Shown here in pieces: positions 32,689-35,425 of a stretch of 38,302 bases of DNA (the first letter of the stretch is position 1; each line of letters begins with the position of its first letter). Under the pieces are notes generated by a model, which was given only the letters and a program-made list of their open reading frames with translations, made no database searches and was not told where the DNA came from. This stretch comes from an uncultured Actinomycetes bacterium (lineage in GTDB: Bacteria; Actinomycetota; Actinomycetes; Nanopelagicales; Nanopelagicaceae), in the NCBI GenBank assembly GCA_903846075.1, contig CAIMZW010000138.1, positions 1 to 38,302 on the forward strand. Reading direction: 5' to 3'. The translations under genes and the position numbers were made by a program.

Positions 32689-34056
32689 TTAGGCCTCGAC
32701 TTCAACCTCAGGAGTTGAAGAAGTGTGCATGACCTCGGCTGCTGCATCGGCGGCCTTCGCTTCTTCCTTCTGCTTCTTGTGAGCCAAGAAACGAGCCTGG
32801 GCTTCTGCGTACTGACGCTCCCATGCTTCGCGCTGGGCTTCAAAGCCTGGCTTCCACTCTTGGGAATCAGCATCAAAGCCTTCTGGGTAAATGAAGTTGC
32901 CTTCAGCATCGTAGCGAGCTGGCATTCCATACTGGGTTGGATCGAAAGCTTCGATCTCCACTTCATGGCCTTCATTTGCTTGCTTGAGAGAAAGTGAGAT
33001 CCGGCGACGCTCGAGGTCGATGTCGATGATCTTTACGAAGAGCTCATCGCCCACCTGGACAACTTGCTCCGGAATCTCGACATGGCGTTCAGCCAATTCC
33101 GAGATGTGAACGAGGCCTTCGATACCTTCGAAGACGCGAACGAATGCACCGAACGGAACCAACTTGGTAACTTCGCCAGGAACAACCTGGTTAATGGTGT
33201 GGGTTCGGGCAAATGCTTGCCAAGGATCTTCTTGAGTTGCCTTGAGGGAGAGGGAAACGCGCTCGCGCTCGAAATCTACTTCGAGGACTTCAACCGTTAC
33301 CTCATCGCCAACTTCAACAACTTCACTTGGGTGATCAATATGCTTCCAAGAAAGTTCGGAAACGTGAACCAAGCCATCAACGCCACCTAGGTCTACGAAA
33401 GCACCAAAGTTAACGATGGAGGAGACAACACCAGTGCGAACTTGACCTTTTTGAAGTTGATTCAAGAAGGTGGTTCGTGATTCAGATTGGGTCTGCTCGA
33501 GGTATGCGCGACGAGAGAGAACAACATTGTTGCGGTTCTTGTCGAGTTCGATAATGCGAGCTTCAACAGTCTTGCCAATATAAGGGGTGAGGTCGCGAAC
33601 GCGGCGCATCTCAACGAGGGATGCAGGAAGGAAGCCGCGAAGTCCGATATCAACGATCAGACCACCCTTAACAACTTCGATGACTACACCAGTAACAACT
33701 TCATCGCGCTCTTTTTTGCCTTCAATTTCGCCCCAGGCACGCTCGTACTGAGCACGCTTCTTGGAGAGAATGAGACGACCTTCTTTATCTTCCTTCTGGA
33801 GAACGAGTGCCTCAACGCGATCGCCAACTTTGACGATCTCAGATGGATCAATGTCGTGACGAATGGAAAGTTCACGGGAAGGGATAACACCTTCAGTTTT
33901 GTAGCCGATATCGAGAAGGACTTCTTCGCGGTCTACTTGTACGACGATTCCGGAAACTAAATCTCCGTCATTAAAATTCTTGATTGTGCCTTCAATTGCT
34001 GCAAGAAAATCTTCTGCTGATCCAATATCGTTTACTGCGATTTGTGAGTTACTCAA
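32689..34056 (-). CDS. rpsA: 30S ribosomal protein bS1
   Basis: Ribosomal protein S1 of 455 residues with four S1 RNA-binding domains at about 29-101, 116-183, 203-272 and 289-358. Domains 3 and 4 have the full FGAFVDLGGVDGLVHVSEL and FGAFVRVFEGIEGLVHISEL signatures. An acidic, alanine-rich C-terminal tail follows. The frame stays open to 34152 only because the leader repeat lacks stops. The conserved N terminus (SNSQIAVNDIGS) points to TTG at 34056, with GGAG 4 nt upstream. Its own promoter and terminator make it a single-gene unit. Confidence 0.95.
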   Translation of the reverse strand: MSNSQIAVNDIGSAEDFLAAIEGTIKNFNDGDLVSGIVVQVDREEVLLDIGYKTEGVIPSRELSIRHDIDPSEIVKVGDRVEALVLQKEDKEGRLILSKKRAQYERAWGEIEGKKERDEVVTGVVIEVVKGGLIVDIGLRGFLPASLVEMRRVRDLTPYIGKTVEARIIELDKNRNNVVLSRRAYLEQTQSESRTTFLNQLQKGQVRTGVVSSIVNFGAFVDLGGVDGLVHVSELSWKHIDHPSEVVEVGDEVTVEVLEVDFERERVSLSLKATQEDPWQAFARTHTINQVVPGEVTKLVPFGAFVRVFEGIEGLVHISELAERHVEIPEQVVQVGDELFVKIIDIDLERRRISLSLKQANEGHEVEIEAFDPTQYGMPARYDAEGNFIYPEGFDADSQEWKPGFEAQREAWERQYAEAQARFLAHKKQKEEAKAADAAAEVMHTSSTPEVEVEA

Positions 34057-34065
34057 GATGCTCCA

Positions 34066-34110
34066 GTTGGGATAGAAGTAGTTGGGATAGAAGTAGTAGG
34101 GATAGGACAG
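34066..34110. repeat. 15-bp tandem repeat in the rpsA leader
   Basis: Two identical 15-bp units, plus-strand GTTGGGATAGAAGTA at 34066-34080 and 34081-34095, followed by a third copy at 34096-34110 matching at 10 of 15 positions. The array fills most of the predicted rpsA 5' untranslated region, ending 10 nt before the TTG start. Confidence 0.85.
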
Positions 34111-34113
34111 ATA

Positions 34114-34143
34114 AGGGTACCTTCGCGCGGAAATAATGGTCAA
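34114..34143 (-). promoter_or_regulatory. rpsA promoter
   Basis: Minus-strand TTGACC (34143-34138), an 18-nt spacer, then TACCCT (34119-34114). The -35 matches TTGACA at five of six positions and the -10 fits TANNNT. This is the best-formed promoter seen here. The transcript would start near 34107, giving a leader of about 50 nt. The -35 overlaps the start codon of the divergent MFS gene. Confidence 0.65.
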
Positions 34144-35425
34144 ACCAGCCATTTCTGCAAACCTATATGATTTGCGAATGCGTGCTTATTTCGAGGTTTT
34201 ACGGTTGAGATCGGCGCAAATGTTGATGCTGAGCGCTTTTCCAGCCCGATTGGCCTACTCGATGATTGGTCTGGGCATCTATTTCAAAGTTCAACATTCA
34301 ACACATTCCATCTCGGCTGCAGGGGTCGCTGTCGGACTCAATGGCTTGGCTGGCGCCCTAACGGCCGGTGTCCGAGGCACGATTATGGACACCTGGGGTC
34401 TGAAATGGCCGCTTCGACTCTTTGTTCCCGCCTACGGCTCCTTGATTCTTCTCTTTAACCACGGGCATAGCCGAAATTCCCTCGTCCTTACCGCCTTCAT
34501 TTTGGGTTTCACTGCTCCCCCAATAAATCTTTCGGTCCGCCCTATGTGGAAAATTACTGTGGCACCGGAGCAAATTAGAACTGCCTACGCCATTGATACC
34601 GCAGTCATGAACTTCGTTGGAGTCGTTGGGCCGGTACTCGCAACATATGTCGCGCTATCGAGCCACCCGGAACGAACCTTGCAAATATGTGCCGGAGCGA
34701 TGTTTTTGGGCGGCGGAGCACTTGCGCTCTTGCCGGCAACCAAGAAGTGGAAGCCTGAATCGAAAGATAAAGATGAACTTCCGATTTGGCGGGTCCCAGC
34801 GCTTCGTCTTCTCATGTTGGAAGGTGCCTTTATTGGTTTGGGTTGGGGAGCATTTGCCATCGGAGTCCCAGCATTTGCGACGATCGCAAAAGTGCCACAC
34901 CGGACCGGAACTATCTTGGCGATCATGGCGGGCTTTACCGTTATCGGCAGTTTGCTAGCCGGACTCATCTCCAGAAAGACCTCCTCCCTCCAAGCATTTC
35001 GACGCCTCTATTTGGGATGGTTTATTGCCAGCTTGCCCTTGGCATTTTCCTTTCCTGATTGGCGGTTGATGATTCTCTGCGCCTTCCTTGGATTAATGAA
35101 TGGTGGGATGCAAACTTTCTATTGGGAGATTACCGATGCGGTTCGACCTCGTGGTTCCGCTGTTGCTGCCCTTGGTTGGCTCTGGACTGTCGAGGGAACT
35201 TGTGCCTCTATTGGAACTTCGTTGGGTGGAGTCATCTCCGATAAATTTTCGCCACGTTGGTGTTTGGCCAGCACCACAATTGCTGTTGGTGCTGGACTGT
35301 TAATTATCACTTTGGGAAAGAATGTGCTGAGCGCCGCCGATCGAATACCAACTGATGAAGAGGATACCGAAGCACTTGGAGATGTCATTGCTTCTGGTGA
35401 CAGACTTTTCGTCGACAATCAGTGA
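34136..35425 (+). CDS. MFS transporter
   Basis: Major facilitator superfamily protein of 429 residues with about twelve hydrophobic segments and a long charged linker near the middle (KKWKPESKDKDELP). The N half has LGIYFKVQHSTHS and GVAVGLNGLAGALTAGVRG; the C half has LIVIGS-like FTVIGSLLAGLIS and GLMNGGMQTFYWEI. It resembles the large group of uncharacterised actinobacterial drug/solute exporters. Substrate not predictable. ATG at 34136 has no Shine-Dalgarno; a later ATG (MRAYFEVLRLRSAQ) is possible. Its start codon lies in the -35 box of rpsA and its last 7 nt overlap polA. Confidence 0.85.
   Translation: MVKPAISANLYDLRMRAYFEVLRLRSAQMLMLSAFPARLAYSMIGLGIYFKVQHSTHSISAAGVAVGLNGLAGALTAGVRGTIMDTWGLKWPLRLFVPAYGSLILLFNHGHSRNSLVLTAFILGFTAPPINLSVRPMWKITVAPEQIRTAYAIDTAVMNFVGVVGPVLATYVALSSHPERTLQICAGAMFLGGGALALLPATKKWKPESKDKDELPIWRVPALRLLMLEGAFIGLGWGAFAIGVPAFATIAKVPHRTGTILAIMAGFTVIGSLLAGLISRKTSSLQAFRRLYLGWFIASLPLAFSFPDWRLMILCAFLGLMNGGMQTFYWEITDAVRPRGSAVAALGWLWTVEGTCASIGTSLGGVISDKFSPRWCLASTTIAVGAGLLIITLGKNVLSAADRIPTDEEDTEALGDVIASGDRLFVDNQ

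Follow-up and report, generated by a model that had tools for sequence, protein, structure and literature searches.

The window analysed here, a 38,302-nt stretch of contig CAIMZW010000138.1 from an uncultured actinobacterium of the Nanopelagicaceae (class Actinomycetes), carries on its minus strand the gene for ribosomal protein S1, rpsA. The gene is identified by a match to PRK07899 (30S ribosomal protein S1; E 3.9e-261, obtained on the longer open reading frame from 34152) and by four stretches of PF00575 in its product, so that the short tandem repeats just upstream of its start codon do lie in the rpsA leader, where the sequence-only reading had placed them. The features of the locus are:

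34138–34143, minus strand: −35 hexamer TTGACC, by direct reading; the pattern is conserved in Nanopelagicales
34114–34119, minus strand: −10 hexamer TACCCT, 18 nt from the −35 hexamer; conserved as TA[ACG]N[CT]T in those 60 of 87 Nanopelagicales leaders that carry the promoter pattern given below
34091–34105, minus strand: unit 1, CTATCCCTACTACTT, the ancestral upstream unit, with the same letters in both congeners
34076–34090, minus strand: unit 2, CTATCCCAACTACTT, the extra unit, seen in this species only and absent in both congeners
34061–34075, minus strand: unit 3, CTATCCCAACTGGAG, the ancestral unit proximal to the Shine-Dalgarno sequence (SD), its 3′ end being GGAG (34064–34061)
34054–34056, minus strand: TTG start codon of rpsA, 4 nt past GGAG
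32689–34056, minus strand: rpsA, ribosomal protein S1, 455 aa, four S1 domains (PRK07899 and PF00575)

As a strict sigma-70 consensus scan gave no promoter match upstream of rpsA, the promoter is called on its conservation in Nanopelagicales: 60 of 87 leaders (a set that follows our own grouping by kinship and sequence) contain TTGAC-N16..20-TANN[C/T]T, and without exception their spacers are 18 nt (42 leaders) or 17 nt (18 leaders) long. What had been read as a good promoter, TTGACC-18-TACCCT, thus stands as a conserved pattern and not as a strict sigma-70 match. The start codon is TTG in 71 of the 87 leaders. All of the 87 Nanopelagicales leaders counted, and 76 of 97 others, have a GGAG within range; its spacing to the start is 4 nt in 66 of the 87 and, in other Actinomycetes, 10–12 nt in 68 of the 76 leaders having GGAG, while the SD spacing of rpsB leaders is commonest at 7 nt. 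Divergent to rpsA, an MFS-type gene lies on the plus strand (34136–35425). The two gene starts are about 80 nt apart, so that the region upstream of the MFS-type gene overlaps with the promoter and repeats of rpsA; both congeners align across that stretch.

On the minus strand, three 15-nt units (34105–34091, 34090–34076 and 34075–34061) take up the predicted leader of rpsA, which is roughly 50 nt long. The 5′ edge of unit 1 lies approximately at the predicted 5′ end of the transcript, and unit 3 merges into the SD GGAG, which is followed by CATC and then by the TTG start at 34056. TRF places the array at 34065–34105 (period 15, 2.7 copies, 96% matches, score 75), the top-scoring array of the window. 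No other site of the window has a self-match run as long as 14 at periods 8–40 (here the run is 18, with period 15, at 34065), and such a run appeared in 0 of 20 mononucleotide shuffles of the window; the 15-bp tandem repeat of the sequence-only reading is therefore real. TACTTCTATCCCAAC occurs exactly twice in the organism's own genome, both times in the rpsA leader array, and none of five further own-genome sites within two mismatches of the 15-mer lies inside an Rfam RNA. In L003, a tRNA at 1552–1625 adjoins a 15-mer-like match at 1501–1515 without overlapping it. The array had no match in the phage collection, and Rfam 15 gave no family match at E ≤ 1 in window positions 33800–34350 and, in the leaders of seven relatives, two matches, both far below gathering. 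Within the rpsA coding sequence there is also a weak 24-bp tandem duplication (33654–33702; 2 copies, 76%).

The three units are not equally represented among relatives. In both congeners (two genomes), CTATCCCTACTACTT is followed by CTATCCCAACTGGAG, giving two units at period 15, and the rest of the leader is very similar; the sequence common to the congeners' leaders is CTACTACTTCTATCCCAACTGGAGCA..TTGAG. Across 123 distinct family leaders, a period-15 run of 18, that is, three units, is found in a single one, the window's own. The two-unit state appears as a run of 10 in 24 leaders and a run of 11 in one, and the usual states in the family are two units at period 15–17 or one recognisable unit. 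On these comparisons the three-unit array is private to the window's species, whose repeat number comes from a single assembly, which gives no evidence of variation by slippage. A 15-nt slip between two ancestral units would have produced the three units seen there, and the third unit is probably a minor local change, neutral or of little effect. Of the initial description of two identical copies plus a decayed third, the array itself holds up; the supposedly decayed copy is the conserved ancestral upstream unit, and the middle unit is the extra one. With three units in one family leader and two or one as the usual state, the proposal that copy number tunes S1 synthesis is unsupported. A class-wide repeat of the unit, which had seemed visible in Cellulomonas, was dropped, as only 7 of 75 leaders outside Nanopelagicales pass a self-repeat test at p < 0.05, with about 4 expected.

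The old part of the locus is the sequence underlying the array, CCTACTACTTTCTATCCCTACGGAG, which is pyrimidine-rich and predicted to be unfolded. The family consensus before the SD is TCCTATCCCTACTACTTTCTATCCCTACGGAG; a CTACTA core is present in 109 of the 123 distinct family leaders, and T[A/G]T[C/T]C stands directly before [C/T]GGAG in 94 of them. In the 67 of 105 leaders that have the core at −20, mean pairwise identity over the 24 nt before GGAG is 0.75, compared with 0.62 for the third positions of the 21 codons that follow and 0.30 at −75 to −38. Absence of a pyrimidine-rich tract from the leaders of close relatives had been named as an outcome that would speak against the initial proposal; both congeners and the family keep the tract.

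At the level of the class, the box T[A/G]TCC-N0..8-[C/T]GGAG is present in 91 of 184 distinct Actinomycetes leaders; 300 shuffles, which ignore common descent, gave 2.6 on average and 8 at most. This sample, comprising named records and further class genomes besides the family, was reduced from 212 loci by dropping nine without a recognised S1 start (L072, L073, L133, L134, L135, L137, L195, L227 and L229) and five without an SD-like sequence, and by collapsing duplicates. Family leaders have the box in 37 of 65 cases, named records in 38 of 74 and the other class leaders in 16 of 45. CTGTCC or ATGTCC stands right before the SD in, for example, Cellulomonas, Cryobacterium and Promicromonospora, and GTGTCC in Serinicoccus. 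The element is not universal, as 93 of the 184 class leaders lack the box: in genus g8 it is replaced by ACCC, and in Nocardioides and Microbacterium records it is missing or altered. No clear element was seen in 23 loci outside the class Actinomycetes, where L322 and L323 have CTGTCC near AGGAG. Two records, L041 (CAMCXX010000008.1) and L056 (CAMBGL010000036.1), bear "Bifidobacterium breve" MAG titles, yet have an rpsA and leader like those of freshwater Nanopelagicales and are probably mistitled.

The repeat unit had also been described as pyrimidine-rich in RNA, which fits the comparative data. Over the 25 nt before the SD, the mean pyrimidine fraction is 0.75 in family, 0.68 in named and 0.63 in class rpsA leaders, against 0.43 in rpsB leaders. 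RNAalifold found 0 consensus pairs in the leaders. The folding z of rpsA leaders averages +0.38 in the family (64 leaders) and +0.75 elsewhere (119 leaders), as opposed to −0.99 for 26 rpsB leaders, so the rpsA leader is predicted to be unfolded. A hairpin sequestering the SD by UCC/GGA pairing, attractive in Cellulomonas-like leaders, was rejected, because folding is weaker than in shuffles and the fourth pair mostly fails to match: among 105 leaders whose loop is long enough, it is complementary in only 23 (20 G-C, 3 A-U), C/C alone accounting for 51. The rpsB leaders of the class (L241–L266) have a different, structured, G+C-rich pattern, GGCGTCAGG...AACCGAG, which folds below its shuffles.

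The position of the element points to the messenger. The core lies 13–23 nt before the SD (sd 2.2; 20 nt in 48 leaders), whereas its distance from the −10 hexamer ranges over 14–85 nt (sd 17.9) because hairpin-like inserts occur in some genera. These inserts, e.g. TCGCACGCCGTGCGA, are unrelated to one another and stand between the rpsA promoter and the element in different genera (L031–L037, L146–L151). A nearly fixed distance to the SD combined with a variable one to the promoter probably reflects a role in mRNA at translation initiation.

By sequence comparison, the element is specific to rpsA within the family. From 51 leaders a sequence-only model, R1, was made and searched across 31 genomes, and all 13 matches at E ≤ 0.01 are rpsA leaders (identified by coordinates or, in three cases, by reading the gene), partly by construction, as some come from genomes used in building R1. 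Weaker matches start at E 0.059; seven of these were read, and a single one proved to be an rpsA leader, unlike the other six. R1 gave zero matches in twelve genomes outside the family and in one inside it, and is therefore to be taken as a family model. No regulon of further genes emerged from R1 at E ≤ 0.01 in the 31 genomes. A degenerate class pattern, CTGTCCGNATCGGAG, proved useless as a regulon probe, with many matches in large genomes. The class box is present in 0 of 26 rpsB leaders of the class; rpsB is the single control gene examined closely, and of its 30 loci 26 yielded a start and 24 the complete 25 nt. These alignments and searches show the element itself, its restriction to rpsA in the family, its tie to the SD instead of the promoter, and the absence of predicted structure; we consider it very probable that rpsA carries a conserved element acting at the RNA level.

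We favour the reading that this leader is a cis-acting element of rpsA translation initiation, with S1 as its likely ligand and with feedback, and put the probability of this statement as a whole at about 0.5. S1 is the putative ligand because the site is pyrimidine-rich, unfolded, restricted to a single target and placed right before the SD of the S1 mRNA. A pyrimidine-rich RNA of the type CCUACUACUUUCUAUCCCUACGGAG, predicted to be unfolded, is kept directly upstream of the SD and merges with it; S1 carried by the 30S subunit would load the ribosome via this tract, and excess free S1 would cover both tract and SD, shutting off its own synthesis. For feedback taken separately, we see roughly even odds. 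In E. coli, according to the cited part of PMC10931766, free and ribosome-bound S1 compete for the initiation region and S1 thereby represses its own mRNA. The same source reports that substituting a canonical SD abolishes S1 autorepression. The strong conservation of GGAG in the actinobacterial leaders argues against a plain copy of that control, as does their predicted lack of folding, the E. coli leader being folded; the off-optimum placement of the SD (4 nt, or 10–12 nt) could possibly reconcile a strong SD with feedback. Nor would S1 alone explain why exact sequences like CUACUAC and UAUCCC are kept, since it is described as a protein without strict sequence preferences (PMC10931766, cited part). 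A more far-reaching version, in which an undescribed, sequence-specific and unstructured rpsA operator extends through much of the class, S1 represses itself despite a strong SD and repeat number shifts the set point in some species, seems to us rather unlikely.

A serious rival, though in our judgement an unlikely one, is a constitutive enhancer, in which ribosome-bound S1 would dock on the tract and so keep translation of rpsA high, without feedback. An unfolded pyrimidine-rich tract right before the SD and a conserved GGAG are what such an enhancer would have, and an SD at 4 or 10–12 nt, instead of the 7 nt commonest in rpsB, could make extra help necessary. A generic enhancer, however, should also precede other genes with high expression, and the box is missing from all the rpsB leaders, just as no other gene was found at E ≤ 0.01 in the 31 genomes, with one control gene examined closely. 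Improbable in our estimate is a site for another trans-acting factor, such as a small RNA or an RNA-binding protein other than S1. Conservation of the exact letters goes beyond what a loose ligand such as S1 would lead one to expect, but rpsA as the sole strong target points to a self-referential ligand, and 0 of the 5 near-match sites in the window's own genome falls in an Rfam RNA. We give very little weight to control of transcription, whether by an operator in the DNA or by the initially transcribed sequence. The units of short leaders do start near the predicted +1, but the element tracks the SD and not the promoter: its distance from the latter varies over 14–85 nt, and several genera have hairpin-like inserts in between. 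A coding repeat, i.e. an N-terminal extension from ATG 34152 with tandem YFYPN, can be set aside, for although the frame is open from 34152, that ATG lies upstream of the −35 hexamer of the conserved promoter, S1 homology starts past the TTG, and the frame has a stop within 100 nt in 67 of 87 Nanopelagicales leaders (between the −10 hexamer and the start in 14 of 60, a weak test, as leaders are short).

The preferred reading, an initiation element with S1 as likely ligand and feedback, has several partial precedents, which we compare through the cited parts of the respective sources. The autogenous leader of gammaproteobacterial rpsA (E. coli; Boni and co-workers; PMC10931766) belongs to the same gene, with S1 as proposed ligand and competition with ribosome-bound S1 as proposed mechanism. 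Leaders of that type fold in a specific way and lack a canonical SD, whereas the leader described here is predicted to be unfolded and has a conserved GGAG; it shares the location in the rpsA leader, and not the folded hairpins or the absence of an SD (GGAG at 34064–34061). The nearest parallel in form is provided by the TAACTGA direct repeats of Beggiatoaceae (PMC4679880), which likewise include short repeats just before the S1 gene (5, 3 and 2 copies in three species) and for which S1 has been named as candidate binder. Those 7-nt repeats precede many genes per genome, apparently in place of an SD; here, the unit is CTATCCCWACTACTT and not TAACTGA, a single gene is concerned, the spacing is 15–17 nt and the unit is merged with the SD. 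In the same class of bacteria, mycobacterial rpsO (S15; PMC8470358) is a ribosomal protein gene that controls its own translation via its leader, but S15 uses a pseudoknot there, whereas the rpsA leader is predicted to be unstructured. That 2021 paper, in its cited part, describes post-transcriptional control as "poorly investigated" in Actinobacteria and mentions RpsA solely as a future problem. Our literature search, with most subscription papers outside it, found no description of an actinobacterial rpsA leader element or autoregulation. Control of ribosomal protein genes through their leaders is a known principle, and the actinobacterial rpsA element is apparently undescribed.

As S1 helps ribosomes to pick messages, the element bears on how actinobacteria set their S1 level, and a leader that is short, unstructured and conserved offers a concrete and easily mutated target. 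If the proposed feedback is true, self-control by S1 would reach beyond the folded, SD-less type known from E. coli.
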